A stretch of 64,000 nucleotides of DNA from Phormidium tenue FACHB-1052 (lineage in GTDB: Bacteria; Cyanobacteriota; Cyanobacteriia; Phormidesmidales; Phormidesmidaceae): the NCBI RefSeq assembly GCF_014696675.1, contig NZ_JACJQN010000011.1:1-64000 (forward strand). The letters run 5' to 3'. This document shows positions 24,764 to 52,144 of the stretch, piece after piece; the stretch's first letter is position 1; every line of letters starts with the position of its first letter. The notes under the pieces are model-generated. The model saw only the letters and a program-made list of their open reading frames with translations. It ran no database searches and had not been told where the DNA came from. The position numbers and the translations under genes are program-made.

Positions 24764-25137
24764 ATGGCTCAGCCCTACCCCCTGCGAGGCCAAATTTATC
24801 TGATCAAAGCGATCCGTAACCTGGGCGATACGAAAAAGCGGCCAGCGGTGGTGGTTTCCATCAATCTGCGTAACGAACTCAGCCAAATCGTACTGGTGGT
24901 ACCCTTTACCAGCGATATCCGCAGCGGCGAGACGCCAACCCGCATCTTGCTCACCGCCGGAGAAGGCGGTTTAGAAACGGATTCTCTAGCCACCTGCGAC
25001 CATGTGCTTGCCGTCCGCAAAACCTATTTAGAGCAAGGCCCTACGGCAGCATCAGCCCCCTATCACTGCGGCGCATTCAGCAGGGAATTCAAATCGCCAT
25101 CGGCATCTATCCTAGCGGCGCTATCATGACCCCATGA
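24764..25137 (+). pseudogene. MazF/PemK-type toxin with a C-terminal frameshift
   Basis: The first ~92 residues match the MazF/PemK endoribonuclease family: LRGQIYLIKAI, KRPAVVVSINLRNE, VVPFTSDIRSGETPTRI, LATCDHVLAVRKTYLEQGP. The usual ending then fails, and as written the frame stops at 25129. One base inserted in the C-run at 25039-25041 would give GPYGSISPLSLRRIQQGI followed by QIAIGIYP, the normal family tail, and end at a TGA (25135-25137) overlapping the sbcD start as ATGA. The restored architecture strongly suggests a recent single-base loss or a sequencing error. If real, toxin activity is probably altered or lost. Confidence 0.8.
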
Positions 25138-26444
25138 TCACCCTTCTCCACCTCTCCGACATTCACATGGGCAGCGGGTTTGCCCACGGTCGCCTCAACC
25201 CCGAAACCGGCCTCAACACCCGCCTAGAAGACTTCATTGCCGCTCTCACCCGCTGCATCGATCGCGCCCTAGCCGAGCCGGTCGATCTGGTGCTGTTTGG
25301 CGGCGATGCCTTTCCCGATGCTACGCCGCCGCCGCTGGTGCAGCAGGCCCTGGCCCGTCAGTTTTGTCGGCTGTCGGCGGCGGGTATCCCCACTGTGCTG
25401 CTGGTGGGCAACCACGACCAGCATGCCCAGGGCTTGGGCGGAGCCAGCCTGTCGATCTACAGAACGCTGGGCGTGCCGGAGGTGGTGGTGGGCGATCGCC
25501 TCGAAACCCACCGCATTGACACCCGCAGTGGCCCGGTGCAGGTCGTCACCCTGCCCTGGCTGACCAAATCGACCCTGCTCACCCGGCCCGAAACCGAGGG
25601 CTTCTCCATGGCCCAGGTCAACGAGCTGCTGCTCGATCGCCTGCGGGTGGCCCTGGAGGGTGAAGTTCGCCGCCTCGACCCCGCGATTCCCGCTATTTTG
25701 CTGGCCCACGCCATGGTCGATACCGCCACCTACGGGGCCGAGCGATTTTTGGCCACCGGGCGGGGCTTCAACATTCCCATGGCGATGCTGGCCCGCCCCT
25801 GCTTTGACTACGTTGCGCTGGGCCACGTGCATCGCTACCAGGTGCTCTGCGAACAACCCCTGATGATTTATCCCGGCAGCATTGAGCGGGTTGACTTTAG
25901 CGAAGAGGCCGAAGCAAAGGGCTATCTATTGGTGCAGGTAAGCAAAGAAAACACCCAGGCCGAGTTTTGCCCCCTGCCCGTGCGCCCCTTCAAAACCATT
26001 CAGGTCGATCTCACCGGGGTGGAAAATCCCCAGGCGGGGCTGGAGCGGGCGATCGCCAAAGCCGACATCACCGATGCCGTAGTCCGCTGCCTCTACACCC
26101 TGCGCACCGACCAGGTTGACCAGATCGACCAGTCTGCCCTAGAGGCTATTCTGGCTGACGCTCACACCTACACCCTGCAACCCGAGCTGAAGGCCCAAAC
26201 CAACCGCAGCCGCCTGCCCGAACTGGGCACCGACAGCACCCTCGACCCGCTGGCGGCCCTAGGCACCTACTTGGCCAACCGCAATGACCTCGGCGACATG
26301 GCCGAGGCGATGATGACCGCCGCCGCCGCCCTCATCGCCGCCGAAACCGAGGTTGACCTGCCCCTTGAAACCGCTGACATAGACCTAGATAACCTGGACA
26401 GCCTGATGCTTGAGGAAACCGCCCAACAGCTGCGACTGCTCTAG
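25134..26444 (+). CDS. sbcD: SbcD-like DNA repair exonuclease (metallophosphoesterase)
   Basis: A 436-residue calcineurin-like nuclease of the SbcD/Mre11 group, which with SbcC opens hairpins and blocked DNA ends. The metal-binding motifs are all present: HLSDIHMG (DxH), LVLFGGDAFPD (GD), LLVGNHDQH (GNHD), AHAMVD and ALGHVHRYQ (GHxH). The C-terminal ~150 residues form a cap and partner-binding region. The start overlaps the repaired frame of the MazF-like gene, so it may be cotranscribed with the toxin-antitoxin pair. No sbcC gene is in the window. Confidence 0.9.
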   Translation: MITLLHLSDIHMGSGFAHGRLNPETGLNTRLEDFIAALTRCIDRALAEPVDLVLFGGDAFPDATPPPLVQQALARQFCRLSAAGIPTVLLVGNHDQHAQGLGGASLSIYRTLGVPEVVVGDRLETHRIDTRSGPVQVVTLPWLTKSTLLTRPETEGFSMAQVNELLLDRLRVALEGEVRRLDPAIPAILLAHAMVDTATYGAERFLATGRGFNIPMAMLARPCFDYVALGHVHRYQVLCEQPLMIYPGSIERVDFSEEAEAKGYLLVQVSKENTQAEFCPLPVRPFKTIQVDLTGVENPQAGLERAIAKADITDAVVRCLYTLRTDQVDQIDQSALEAILADAHTYTLQPELKAQTNRSRLPELGTDSTLDPLAALGTYLANRNDLGDMAEAMMTAAAALIAAETEVDLPLETADIDLDNLDSLMLEETAQQLRLL

Positions 26445-27590: not shown

Positions 27591-28209
27591 ACAGAGTTGG
27601 CCCGCTCTGCATCGGCCCCAGGTACCGAGTCAGGTAGGGCGAAAACACTTCGTAAATCAGCGTCAATGGCTTGCCCCGATGCCAAAACAGGTAGTGACGA
27701 CCCCAAAACGGCCCAACCTGGCCAAAGGCTTCTTCTAGGGCTGGCGAGTCGCCGTAGTAGAGGCCCTGGATGTCGCGGTACAGCTCGGTGCGCAGGCGGG
27801 CTAGGCTAGCCCAGATCGGCAGCGACTTGTTTTGCAAATATTCATCGACGTGGCTGGCCTCCCACCAAGAGGCGGCGTAGGCGAGGCGCTGGCCCGAAGC
27901 GGTGCGCAGCCACACCTGGCGGCGCAGGCGGGGGCCAGGCACCACGCGAATAATGTCAGGGGCACCGTCGAGATCCATGCCCACCGGGGTCATGTCGATG
28001 ACATCGACCTCGGTGCGATCGCGCGTCAACAACTGCAAATGGCGAGTGGGCGAACCATCTCCCAGCAGTAAAATTTGCCAGGCGGGGGCGAGCTGATCGT
28101 GGGGCAAGCCCTTTTGCACGGTGGGCTGCCCTGCCTGCCAGCGGGGGGCAAGGGCGTGCCAGTCGCTGGGCACCGCCGGATCAATAATGGGCTGTAGGGC
28201 AGAAGCCAA
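27589..28209 (-). CDS. Chorismate lyase (4-hydroxybenzoate synthase)
   Basis: A 206-residue enzyme of the cyanobacterial chorismate lyase family (related to UbiC/DUF98), which removes pyruvate from chorismate to give 4-hydroxybenzoate, the head-group precursor of plastoquinone. Conserved stretches include WQILLLGDGSPTRHLQLLT, the Arg-rich RVVPGPRLRRQVWL and the C-terminal FWGRHYLFWHRGKPLTLIYE, which match this group in length and order. It provides quinone substrate used by NDH-1. The GGATCC-poor 5' side shows no clear ribosome-binding site; the ATG-equivalent start at 28209 (TTG) is the only reasonable one. Confidence 0.85.
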   Translation of the reverse strand: MASALQPIIDPAVPSDWHALAPRWQAGQPTVQKGLPHDQLAPAWQILLLGDGSPTRHLQLLTRDRTEVDVIDMTPVGMDLDGAPDIIRVVPGPRLRRQVWLRTASGQRLAYAASWWEASHVDEYLQNKSLPIWASLARLRTELYRDIQGLYYGDSPALEEAFGQVGPFWGRHYLFWHRGKPLTLIYEVFSPYLTRYLGPMQSGPTL

Positions 28210-28357
28210 GGGCGTTACAAAAATTCATGTGTTAATTCTATGCTATCGCGGCAGCCCGACCCTTTCCAGTCGAATCTGAAGAATTGGCGCGGGCTACAGT
28301 GAATCAGTCCAACACAACGTCCATCAACCATTTTTACTACTGGGGGAGTGCGCCACC

Positions 28358-28777
28358 ATGGCGGAGGGAATCAAACTAGCGGTCAACGGTACGCTAATGC
28401 GCGGGCTTGAGCTTAACCCTAACTTGCTCAACGTCGGGGCTAAGTTTCTCTACGAGGCAGCTACCACCCCCCACTATCGGCTGTGGTCGATCAACGATAA
28501 ACACCCTGCCATGGTGCGAGTCAGCGACGGCGGTATCGCCGTGGTATTAGAGGTGTGGCAGGTGCCCCCCGATGGGTTGGTGCAGGTGCTGCTGCAAGAA
28601 CCACCGGGGCTGAGCATTGGCAAAGTGCTTCTAGACACGGGTGAAACGGTGCTGGGTGTGCTGGGTGAGCCCGTGCTATGCGAGGGCCAGCGAGAGATCT
28701 CGGCCTACGGCGGCTGGCGATCATATTGTGCTGCACTGGGGCTAGAGGCAGAGCCCCAGCCGAAGCTGTCTCAGTAG
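28358..28777 (+). CDS. Stand-alone allophanate-hydrolase C-terminal-like domain
   Basis: A 139-residue protein matching the C-terminal domain of allophanate hydrolase (AtzF-type): GTLMRGLELNPNL, YRLWSINDKHPAMVRV, VVLEVWQVP, GLSIGKVLLDTGE and the closing SAYGGWRSY. The amidase domain that normally precedes it is absent, so it cannot hydrolyse allophanate by itself. The fold is like gamma-glutamylcyclotransferase. The role of the isolated domain is unknown; it might act on or bind a small amide. The ATG at 28358 follows GGGGGAG by about 7-12 bases. Confidence 0.72.
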   Translation: MAEGIKLAVNGTLMRGLELNPNLLNVGAKFLYEAATTPHYRLWSINDKHPAMVRVSDGGIAVVLEVWQVPPDGLVQVLLQEPPGLSIGKVLLDTGETVLGVLGEPVLCEGQREISAYGGWRSYCAALGLEAEPQPKLSQ

Positions 28778-28849
28778 GGTGAACTGTTCCCTGCGAACAA
28801 TCGCCGGTCAGGCCAGGGAAACACTGGCCAGTCGGAGCACGCGGTTGTA

Positions 28850-28899
28850 GGTGAGCAGGCTGGCAGGTTAGAACGTTCTAACCTGCCAGCCTGCTCACC
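28850..28899. repeat. Perfect 50-bp palindrome between convergent genes
   Basis: The left arm of 25 bases (28850-28874, starting GGTGAGCAGGCTGG and ending TTAGAAC) is exactly complementary to the right arm (28875-28899), with no spacer at all. It lies between the stop of the gene at 28777 and that of the HtrA-like gene at 28923. As RNA it forms a 25-bp hairpin in both directions. No T-run follows, so it may end transcripts without one, protect 3' ends, or be a mobile-repeat relic. Confidence 0.9.
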
Positions 28900-28922
28900 A
28901 AGCCTGAACTCAGGTCTGAACC

Positions 28923-30356
28923 CTACTCCACCGTTAGCTGAAAACGACCGCGATCGCCTGCCTGGTAGCTGTTGACTATCACAGAGTAGGTGCCGTCGCG
29001 GGGTAGTGTAACCGCAAGCTCAGAATTGGTATTGTCGGGGTTGGTGTCGTCGTTTTCGGCCAGACGGTTGCGGTTTTCGTCGAGCAGAATCAAGTAGGTG
29101 TCGAAGTCAGGGCTCTCTAGCCGCAGGCGCACGGTCTGCCCCGCCCGACCTCTAAAGCTAAATTCTTGGTAGTAGGAGCCATCCTGTAGGGTGTCATCGC
29201 CCGGCCCCAGATTGCCCTGCTGCCGCAGTAGCGCACCGCTTGGGGCAGTCTGGGTAGGGCCACCCTGACCGCCGCCCGTCTGGCTGAGCTGAAGCTGGTA
29301 GCGGCCCGCCTCGCCCTGACCGTAGCTGTTGGCCAGAATAATGTAAGACCCGGTGTAGGGCAGCTGCACCGAGATGCGGGCGCTGAGGTCGCCGCCGCTG
29401 TCGTCATCTTGAACGGAAAAATCGTCGCGATCGGAGGCTAGCAAAATTAGGTAGGGGTCAACCTCCTGGCTGTTCATGGCAATGGTGACGGTTTGCCCTG
29501 CTTGCCCCTCAAACCGGTAGGGGTTGTAGAAACTGCCGTCGGGCAGCACATTGCTGGTGTCGTTGAGCTGGCCCTGTACCGATGCGCCCAGGGCAATGGG
29601 GATGGGTTCGCGGCTGGTGCGATCGGCGGGGGCTGAGGCTGTGGCCGTGCCCGATCGCACTGAGGCCAAAAACGTCTGCACTGCGTCGGTGGGGATGGCA
29701 AAGCCAATGCCCACGCTGCCACCGCTGTCACCGGTGGTAAAGATCGAGGTATTGACGCCGATCACCTGCCCGGCGCTGTTGAGCAAGGGGCCGCCCGAGT
29801 TGCCGGGGTTGATGGCGGCATCGGTTTGAATGACGTTGCGATCGCGGTCAATGCGGCTGACAATGCCCACGGTGAGGGTGCCCTGCAACCCAAAGGGGCT
29901 GCCGATCGCAAAGGCACTCTGCCCCACCCGCACCGAGTTGGGAGGCGCTAGGGTCACCGTCGGTAGACCGGTGGGGTTGCCCCGCAGGCGCACCGCCGCC
30001 AGGTCGAGTCGGTCTTGGCCATAGCCCACCACGTCGCCTTGAAAGCTGCGACCGTCAGATAGGCGCACCGTCACTACCCGCTCAGTGCCGACCACGTGGG
30101 CGTTGGTCAGAATCAGCCCGCTGGGGTCGACAATGCTGCCGCTGCCGCCGCCATCGCGAGTGTCAATGGCTACCACCGCCGGACTCACCTGATCGTAGAC
30201 CCGAATGGTGGTGGCTTCATCGACCGGTGACTGAGCCAGTGCTGGAGCTGTCCCCAGCGGGGTTAAGCGGACGGGGGCGATCGCTGTGATTCCCGCTAGT
30301 ATTGCCCCGAGGGCCAACGAACTCGATGCCAATCGCTTCACTGCTGCCTGTGCCAT
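28923..30356 (-). CDS. HtrA-like serine protease with two PPC domains
   Basis: A 477-residue exported trypsin-like protease. The signal peptide ends near APALAQ (residues 37-42). The catalytic triad is His87 (LTNAHVV), Asp118 (RLDLAAV) and Ser187 (NPGNSGGP), as in DegP/HhoA proteins. In place of the PDZ domain usual in that family, two PPC (bacterial pre-peptidase C-terminal) domains follow, about 258-357 and 378-477, each with the DGSYYxEF or DGSFYNPYRF strand and a DxYLILLD core. PPC domains often aid secretion or substrate contact. It likely works in the periplasm or outside the cell. It stands alone on the minus strand. Confidence 0.92.
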   Translation of the reverse strand: MAQAAVKRLASSSLALGAILAGITAIAPVRLTPLGTAPALAQSPVDEATTIRVYDQVSPAVVAIDTRDGGGSGSIVDPSGLILTNAHVVGTERVVTVRLSDGRSFQGDVVGYGQDRLDLAAVRLRGNPTGLPTVTLAPPNSVRVGQSAFAIGSPFGLQGTLTVGIVSRIDRDRNVIQTDAAINPGNSGGPLLNSAGQVIGVNTSIFTTGDSGGSVGIGFAIPTDAVQTFLASVRSGTATASAPADRTSREPIPIALGASVQGQLNDTSNVLPDGSFYNPYRFEGQAGQTVTIAMNSQEVDPYLILLASDRDDFSVQDDDSGGDLSARISVQLPYTGSYIILANSYGQGEAGRYQLQLSQTGGGQGGPTQTAPSGALLRQQGNLGPGDDTLQDGSYYQEFSFRGRAGQTVRLRLESPDFDTYLILLDENRNRLAENDDTNPDNTNSELAVTLPRDGTYSVIVNSYQAGDRGRFQLTVE

Positions 30357-36452: not shown

Positions 36453-36540
36453 GGGCGAGTGGGGGAAAGTTTTGAGTTCTTAGTTTTGAGTTTTGAATTA
36501 AAAACTAAAAATTCCAAATTCAAAACTTCCCCCTTCGCCC
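36453..36540. repeat. Large hairpin repeat between ndhF1 and ndhD1
   Basis: GGGCGAGTGGGGGAAAGTTT (from 36453) pairs with the right arm ending in CAAAACTTCCCCCTTCGCCC (36521-36540) with few mismatches. The centre holds repeated TTTTGAG/TTTTGAA units. The same units occur at 39335 and 60780, so this is a member of a dispersed repeat family. It lies within the ndhF1-ndhD1 transcription unit and may affect message stability or the ratio of the two genes. Confidence 0.65.
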
Positions 36541-50802: not shown

Positions 50803-50808
50803 TTCTTC

Positions 50809-50846
50809 AAAATCCCCCTAAACGAAAGCTCGTTTAGGGGGATTTT
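50809..50846. terminator. Bidirectional terminator shared by tRNA-Arg and the MFS gene
   Basis: A perfect 17-bp stem, AAAATCCCCCTAAACGA (50809-50825) and TCGTTTAGGGGGATTTT (50830-50846), encloses AAGC. It starts six bases after the tRNA. On the minus strand its first arm encodes the last three codons and the stop of the MFS gene. Confidence 0.9.
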
Positions 50847-52144
50847 GTTTGTTGAGGTAGGTCAATGGCGTAGACATCCTGTCCGCGCCCCAGGGCAAAC
50901 CTGAGGGAGTGGGCCAGGTCTTTGCTGTTGGCGGTGGCAAAAACTGCCAGCCCTACCATCGTCATCACCCCCGACAGGCCAAAAATGTCTCTATAGCTGA
51001 GCTGGTCGGCGATGGTGCCAAAGATGGTGCCAGCCAGGGCAATACCCACGTCAAAGCCGACCATAGCCAGGCCAAAGGTGCGACCGCGATCGCTGGGGCT
51101 AGAGCGATCGCCCATCAGTGCCGCAATCATGGGAATCAGCGTACCGCCCGCAAACCCCTGAATAAACCCTGCCAGCAAGAACATCGGCGCACTGCGGGCC
51201 AGCCAAAACAGGGCCATGCCCAAACTGTAGATCAGCAGGCTAGCAGTGATGAATCGCCCCCGTCCGTAGCGATCGGAGGCCCGACCGGCAATCAGACGCG
51301 ACATAAAGCTCGCCAGGGCTGAAGCGGTGTAAATCAGGCCCACATTCAAAGCCAGACCCGCTTCCCTCACATAGAGGGGCACAAAAGTGCTCAGGGTGCC
51401 AAAGGCTAGCCCCACCAGCAGCAGAATGATTGCCGGGGTGCGTACTCGCCCGCTCCACAACTGGCCCCAAAACTCCTGCGAGCCAGCATTTTCTACAGTG
51501 CTGGGTGGTTGATAGGGCTCATGCAGCCGCGCCACCAAGACTAACCCAACAATGCCCAATAGCCCCATCACCAAAAACGCGGTGGTAAACCCTGTCGCCT
51601 CGTAGAGAAAGCCGCCAATGGCAGGCCCCAAGGCCAGACCAATGGGGTTGACCAGGGTCATATAGCTAATCAACTCCCCCCGGTTGGCTGGGGGAGCTAG
51701 ATCCAGCACCAGGGCGCTGTAGGCCACCACAAAGGCAGCAATGCTCAAGCCGTGGAAGGCGCGAATGCCAATCATCGCCAAAATCGAGCTATCCAGCGTG
51801 AGGCTGTATCCTCCCAGCGACAACGGCACGATCGCCCGGGGCAAGAACTGCACCAGCAGGTAACCAAAGGGAGCGATCGCGATCGCACTCAACCCCACCA
51901 TCAGCACGATCTTGCGGCCCCGCTCATCGGCCAGCCGGGACAGGTAGGGCCGGGCCGCCAGCAACCCCACAGCAAAGGACGCCATCACAATGCCAATCTG
52001 CTGACCGCTGCCCCCCAGGGTCTCAATAAACAGCGGCAGCGTTGGCAGCAGCCCCGCCAACCCGGCCCAAAAACACAGCCCCGCCGCAAACAGCACCATC
52101 AAATTGGTACGCACCGCTGGGCTAAACGTTGAGAAAATAGTCAA
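50834..52144 (-). CDS. MFS family transporter
   Basis: A 436-residue major facilitator with 12 predicted helices. The loop 2-3 motif [15 protein letters not shown] and the matching second-half loop [13 protein letters not shown] are characteristic, and the helix-5 motif [11 protein letters not shown] points to drug or metabolite export (DHA1-like). The substrate is unknown. The start is TTG at 52144, with GGAG eight bases upstream. The gene ends inside the stem of the tRNA terminator. Confidence 0.9.

Follow-up and report, generated by a model that had tools for sequence, protein, structure and literature searches.

A conserved, single-copy 50-bp palindrome between two convergent genes of Phormidium tenue is a candidate two-way transcript-end hairpin

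What is a perfect palindrome of 50 bp doing between the ends of two convergent genes in a cyanobacterium? The sequence lies in a 64,000-nucleotide window of Phormidium tenue FACHB-1052 (contig NZ_JACJQN010000011.1; the window is the whole stretch analyzed). As an initial annotation had described them, its two 25-base arms are exact reverse complements, with no mismatch and no spacer; the base on either side (A at 28849, A at 28900) is unpaired. The features discussed are listed below.

28850..28899, no strand: perfect palindrome (hairpin) with 25-bp arms and no spacer, from sequence and folding
28857..28867, no strand: core of arm 1, AGGCTGGCAGG, with its mirror copy at 28882-28892; the best conserved part across relatives
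28868..28881, no strand: central 14 bp, varying among relatives; exactly palindromic in G000 (this strain), G007 and G010
28358..28777, + strand: gene converging from the left, encoding a 139-aa allophanate hydrolase C-terminal-like (AH_C) protein, with its stop 72 nt before the palindrome
28923..30356, - strand: gene converging from the right, encoding a 477-aa trypsin-type protease (HtrA/Deg-like) that has two PPC stretches, with its stop 23 nt beyond the palindrome
25134-26444, + strand: SbcD-type nuclease gene (TIGR00619, 215 bits), in the same window, 2.4 kb from the palindrome

Folded as RNA or as DNA, the palindrome forms a 23-bp stem with a 4-nt loop, and its DNA folding has a z-score of -11.9, with none of 200 shuffles equally stable. 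Some 5e-9 such palindromes would be expected by chance in 5.8 Mb of random sequence. It is among the longest in its genome but not unique, as a search of 1.254 Mb of the 5.82-Mb genome (loops of up to 10 nt) found four perfect stems of at least 25 bp, three of them with zero spacer. A fold-back artefact of assembly is excluded, because the independent assemblies of two relatives, G007 and G010, carry perfect palindromes of different letters at the same site.

The initial annotation held that such a sequence is hard to maintain because cruciforms attract SbcCD cleavage. The palindrome seems to coexist with an SbcCD pair, since the window holds the SbcD gene and another part of the genome an SbcC-like gene (C1:351767-354757; 461 bits, just below the curated cut-off of 478.5). 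A palindrome of 50 bp in total is shorter than those that SbcCD renders inviable in E. coli, and the supposed difficulty was thus overstated. A perfect 21-bp hairpin (C1:351640-351683) is located just upstream of the SbcC-like gene.

To place the locus among its relatives, we used the left (AH_C) protein, which has its closest named relatives in Nodosilinea, Tildeniella and Leptolyngbya records (the genome is of Nodosilinea type) and was matched in 24 of 26 genus genomes. Twenty-six loci around it were inspected, 24 from the G set of genomes and two from named records. The protease neighbour was recognized by a short DNA motif of its gene end, convergent and within about 700 nt, rather than by protein search, and was found in this way at 16 loci (14 genomes and the two named records); at the other loci the protease was unrecognized or the gene end was not found. 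At seven of the 16 junctions there is a homologous hairpin, in our strain (G000) and six relatives: G007, G010, G023 (FACHB-131), G024 (FACHB-60), G032 (Tildeniella) and L070 (WJT8-NPBG4). The perfect, zero-spacer palindromes of G007 and G010 have arms of 24 and 25 bp, respectively. Six further junctions (G009, G003, G031, G030, L073 and G019) hold a different hairpin, which in G030 is followed by TTTTT, and three have no strong hairpin (G018, and G006 and G008, with spacers of 11 and 5 nt). From the seven homologous and six other hairpins, we conclude that hairpins of different make recur at the AH_C/protease junction. A small 6-bp hairpin (GGCCAG...CTGGCC, 28811-28829) also lies between the plus-strand stop and the palindrome; the spacers of G007 and G010 showed no such hairpin.

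The hairpin at this junction is conserved and has changed in pairs. In an alignment of the seven homologs, 8 of the 25 pairs have both partners altered in one or more sequences (15 cells) and 91.6% of cells are paired, with a few cells misplaced by an aligner gap in arm 1 of G023 and a base missing from arm 2 of L070. By eye, G023 is better read as having lost one base in both arms. None of 500 shuffles matched the values for double changes and pairing, and slid controls give zero to two double-changed pairs. Both arms hold the 11-bp core AGGCTGGCAGG almost unchanged; in the center and at the outer ends the letters vary, mostly without loss of pairing. We also considered whether wobble pairs at the locus betray strand-specific selection on RNA; the trimmed stems have four minus-strand wobbles and no plus-strand wobble (without L070), and a first hand count had suggested six to one, but the outermost pairs carry plus-strand wobbles, so the strand sign is a hint only.

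Two explanations that treat the palindrome as a DNA element can be weighed against these observations. The initial annotation had proposed a REP-like element or a recombination target, and the sequence is indeed palindromic and intergenic. Palindromes of the GTAGGGGC type, which resemble GTAG-tagged REPs, occur elsewhere in the same genome (eight exact copies), and L073 and G019 have GTAG-type palindromes at the orthologous junction, the one in G019 being imperfect. However, our palindrome has no second arm copy in the 5.82-Mb genome with up to three mismatches, carries no terminal GTAG or CGTC tag on inspection of the sequence, and matches nothing in plasmid and phage collections. The exact inverted repeat of the core is present once in each of three of the 26 genus genomes, always at the AH_C/protease junction and at no second locus, as expected of an element inherited at one place. 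The search for arm copies in the genome and its relatives, which the initial annotation had suggested, thus ended at this single junction. Being single-copy in its own genome, the palindrome is not REP-like, and in the genomes examined the dispersed-repeat reading is refuted. A role as a recombination or mobile target finds no support either, given the lack of phage or plasmid matches and arms that diverge while largely keeping their pairing; overall, we consider a REP/MITE-like or recombination element extremely unlikely.

The same low standing applies to an operator at which a dimeric DNA-binding protein would read AGGCTGGCAGG half-sites. The near-invariance of the 11-bp core in both arms speaks for it, but the site lies downstream of both genes, there is no second exact site in the genome, and the half-site spacing shifts by 8 bp in G032. 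In G010, moreover, one base pair of the core is exchanged in both arms, so that pairing is preserved and the sequence is not.

A relaxed Rfam search of 28200-29200 for a known RNA family returned nine matches, none of which came near its gathering score; eight were to microRNA precursor models and the ninth to a model of a viral hairpin (HCV_SL588). These are generic hairpin matches.

Long perfect hairpins mark the 3' ends of genes in the genus. In 1.254 Mb of our genome, a perfect stem of at least 14 bp (loop up to 10 nt) is present at 16 of 158 convergent, 21 of 545 tandem and one of 172 divergent junctions; when each intergenic stretch was replaced by one approximate dinucleotide shuffle, a perfect 14-bp stem was found at none of 875 junctions, stretches under 28 nt being too short to hold one. 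Five relatives (1.6 Mb; many loci are orthologous and not independent) gave 31 of 221 convergent, 14 of 685 tandem and four of 251 divergent junctions, against two junctions with a stem in their shuffled intergenic DNA. Tandem hairpins lie closer to the upstream stop in 18 of 21 cases in our genome and in 11 of 14 in the five relatives, and called genes contain just two perfect stems of at least 14 bp in 984 kb. Gene calls for these counts came from our own hexamer scorer, which misses short genes and gave coding fractions of 0.70-0.83. Wobbles in tandem hairpins favor the RNA strand of the gene itself (42 versus 21, p = 0.011, with orthologs counted separately; 18 versus 6 in a stricter first set), whereas those in convergent hairpins are balanced (24 versus 23). 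None of the 26 genus genomes has a Rho match above the curated cut-off, although weak matches occur in all, and eight of 14 control genomes pass the same cut-off. This fits the statement in PMC13289151 that cyanobacteria lack Rho.

How could two arms stay exactly complementary while their letters change? Over the 24-bp stem shared by G000 and G007 there are six compensated pair changes and no uncompensated one, and four of the six are purine/pyrimidine flips, which are impossible via G-U. By comparison, in genes aligned across the G000 and G007 contigs, 26% of changes at third codon positions (1836/6961) are transversions, which gives a one-sided P of 0.045 for at least four flips in six, a marginal value for events that are not independent. 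The locus therefore contains the sort of paired changes, including flips with no G-U intermediate, that template switching would leave (8 of 25 pairs; four of six changes between G000 and G007). Taken over hairpins in general, three genome pairs picked as sharing no path on a weak tree (G007/G010, G000/G023 and G024/G032) show nine flips in 20 (P = 0.041 versus 25%), and 15 overlapping genome pairs show 57 in 146 compensated changes, with a share that varies widely by pair (1/10 for G000/G024, 5/7 for G000/G023). The excess of flips is only suggestive, because part of it comes from the palindrome itself.

Stepwise change is common too, since half-changed pairs outnumber compensated ones over all orthologous hairpins (215 versus 146 in the 15 overlapping genome pairs). 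Between G007 and G010 the numbers are 32 and 8, and 27 of the 32 are one-sided wobbles. Within the palindrome stem itself, no half-changed pair separates G000, G007 and G010. The pair-change counts leave out groups 3, 7, 97 and 112 (inverted centers), as well as hairpins with odd length differences, shorter than 20 nt, more than 40% different or with fewer than six shared pairs. Because few branches of the relatives' tree are firm (one of five is starred), events were not counted on the tree. Nor is arm correction constant, as the arms are imperfect in four of the six relatives (G023, G024, L070 and G032).

A second kind of evidence comes from the centers of other hairpins in the genus. Among 41 alignable orthologous groups, three have a clearly inverted center of 13-16 nt between species, with the arms and flanks in place: two between G007 and G010 (L043:17717-17761 / L058:7028-7072, and the hairpin near L059:11329-11503) and one between G000 and G010 (L014:15292-15332 / L066:16617-16659). 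Each has a simulated null of at most 1e-4 before allowing for the 41 groups. Groups 13 and 112 have weakly inverted centers, and four more groups fit the inverted reading better, but not beyond chance. These inversions are likely to be footprints of template switching, a process that probably operates in the genus and may possibly have acted at 28850-28899 as well, where, with zero spacer, an inversion of the center would be invisible.

The remaining question is what kind of gene end this is. The palindrome is a stable, GC-rich hairpin downstream of both stop codons (by 23 and 72 nt), as an intrinsic terminator would be. PMC13289151 (section 6) takes at least four U in the eight positions directly after the stem as the threshold for a U-tract; our strain has two T in the eight nucleotides after the core stem on each strand, and the palindrome was not reported by a terminator scan. 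The initial annotation's view of a site between convergent genes, without T-runs and hence not an ordinary terminator, is therefore confirmed, and efficient canonical intrinsic termination here is unlikely. The six homologs have four to five T on the plus strand and three to four on the minus strand (again counted after the core stem, not the full stem), with TTTT on both strands in G032. Given these three to five T against two in our strain, the locus looks like a lineage of weak bidirectional terminators in which our strain appears to have lost its U-tract through paired changes that preserved every pair.

There are two rival accounts. The palindrome could simply be a canonical bidirectional intrinsic terminator with a weak U-tract, its zero spacer and exactness being incidental. 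This reading draws on the T content of the homologs, on the hairpin and TTTTT of G030 at the orthologous junction, and on several other convergent hairpins of the genus that look like plain terminators with A-tract/T-tract arms; the T-poor flanks on both strands and the silent terminator scan in our strain disfavor it, and we think it unlikely. Alternatively, the palindrome could be a functionless mutational relic, if template switching makes or perfects palindromes that survive wherever they are harmless, such as between gene ends. The spacer inversions and flips do suggest that templated mutation acts on hairpins of the genus, and the near absence of stems of at least 14 bp from called genes (two in 984 kb) is also in its favor. 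Divergent intergenic DNA, however, is also non-coding and has few (1/172 in our genome, 4/251 in the relatives), although promoters may constrain it. The preference of tandem wobbles for the transcribed strand, at 42 to 21, and the conservation of the GC core of the hairpin across seven genomes likewise speak against a relic, which we regard as decidedly improbable.

The palindrome is real: a hairpin present once in its genome and conserved between the ends of two genes. Its function, judged from its place and its evolution, is most likely connected with those ends. Our preferred reading, held with moderate confidence, is a two-way transcript-end hairpin (a weak terminator and/or a 3' RNA protector) that has lost its U-tract here and whose exactness was perhaps helped by template switching. 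We infer transcription through the palindrome, protection or termination of the RNA, and template switching at the site. As a 3'-end hairpin common to two convergent genes, it would yield the same 23-bp RNA stem and 4-nt loop when transcribed from either side. That stem would weakly stop or slow RNA polymerase and block 3'-5' exonucleases, and would define and protect the 3' ends of both mRNAs in a lineage that lacks Rho. The outer part of both arms is GC-richer in our strain, where the U-tract would have gone with all pairs kept; RNA protection and pausing would remain after this loss. Template switching during replication could copy one arm from the other, writing a mutation in one arm into both.

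The proposed two-way transcript-end hairpin resembles several known systems without coinciding with any of them. It shares with bidirectional Rho-independent terminators its place, its use by two genes and a strong GC-rich hairpin, and its homologs keep a weak U-tract; unlike them, the palindrome of our strain has no U-tract, no spacer and 25 perfect pairs, and a terminator role is putative. Plastid 3' inverted repeats are described as impeding PNPase and bearing on mRNA stability (PMC5897788), and loop flips or small inversions are reported in plastid hairpins between related species (PMC6824564). The likeness to these 3'-UTR repeats includes loop flips between species, seen in three other hairpins of the genus; the plastid repeats are organellar, whereas RNA protection by our palindrome is suggested by analogy and a flip in it would leave no trace. 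PMC8794818 describes arm copying and loop inversion as signs of template switching, and long stems, changes in both arms and loop inversions link our hairpins to template-switch hairpins and quasipalindrome correction (PMC8794818; PMC7202029). The hairpins described in PMC8794818 are those of rRNA and microRNA, whereas ours lie between genes, at 3' ends, in a genus of cyanobacteria. GTAG-tagged REPs, as presented in PMC3733652, are likewise palindromic, mostly between convergent or same-direction genes and probably transcribed, but are dispersed, multi-copy and tagged, unlike our single-copy, untagged palindrome. In the open-access literature, covered mostly through titles and the beginnings of abstracts and with most subscription papers outside it, we found no report of this palindrome or of spacer inversions in cyanobacterial 3'-end hairpins.

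The hairpin bears on the way in which most cyanobacterial transcripts end in the absence of Rho; in a 2026 study of one species, ends with a hairpin and U-tract are given for only 22% of transcription units (PMC13289151). A hairpin that is conserved, exactly paired, free of a U-tract and common to two convergent genes makes a concrete candidate 3'-end element. Orthologous hairpins with flipped spacers form a natural record that agrees with template switching in the intergenic DNA of bacteria, and they may be linked to the loop flips that plastid genomes are known for. A broader proposition, which we put forward tentatively and consider rather doubtful, is that long, exact, U-less palindromes between convergent genes form a distinct two-way transcript-end class in Rho-less cyanobacteria, a free-living counterpart of plastid 3' inverted repeats, which would be kept exact or flipped by replication template switching and not by stepwise compensatory selection alone.

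Several other hairpins came to light along the way. Our genome has a 26-bp perfect stem with zero spacer and GCGATCGC at its center (L024:19716-19767), a 25-bp perfect stem with zero spacer of the AATTCAAAA type (L210:11271-11320) and a 31-bp perfect stem with a 4-nt loop (L023:1260-1325). The GTAGGGGC...GCCCCTAC palindrome family has its eight exact copies at L220 (C1:83278-83305 of our genome) and seven other places. At a convergent junction of G007 and G010 (L041:5918-5969 / L055:15148-15199) there is a near-perfect palindrome of 26 pairs with zero spacer, which is kept in G023 and G024 and whose wobble strands differ by species. Within the window, 36462-36533 is an imperfect, AT-rich, intergenic inverted repeat of 36 bp of the TTTTGAGTTTTGAATT type, and a similar sequence stands at the corresponding position of G024 and in L084. 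A perfect 18-bp hairpin with a 4-nt loop at 50808-50847 is kept in G024 with one compensated pair.
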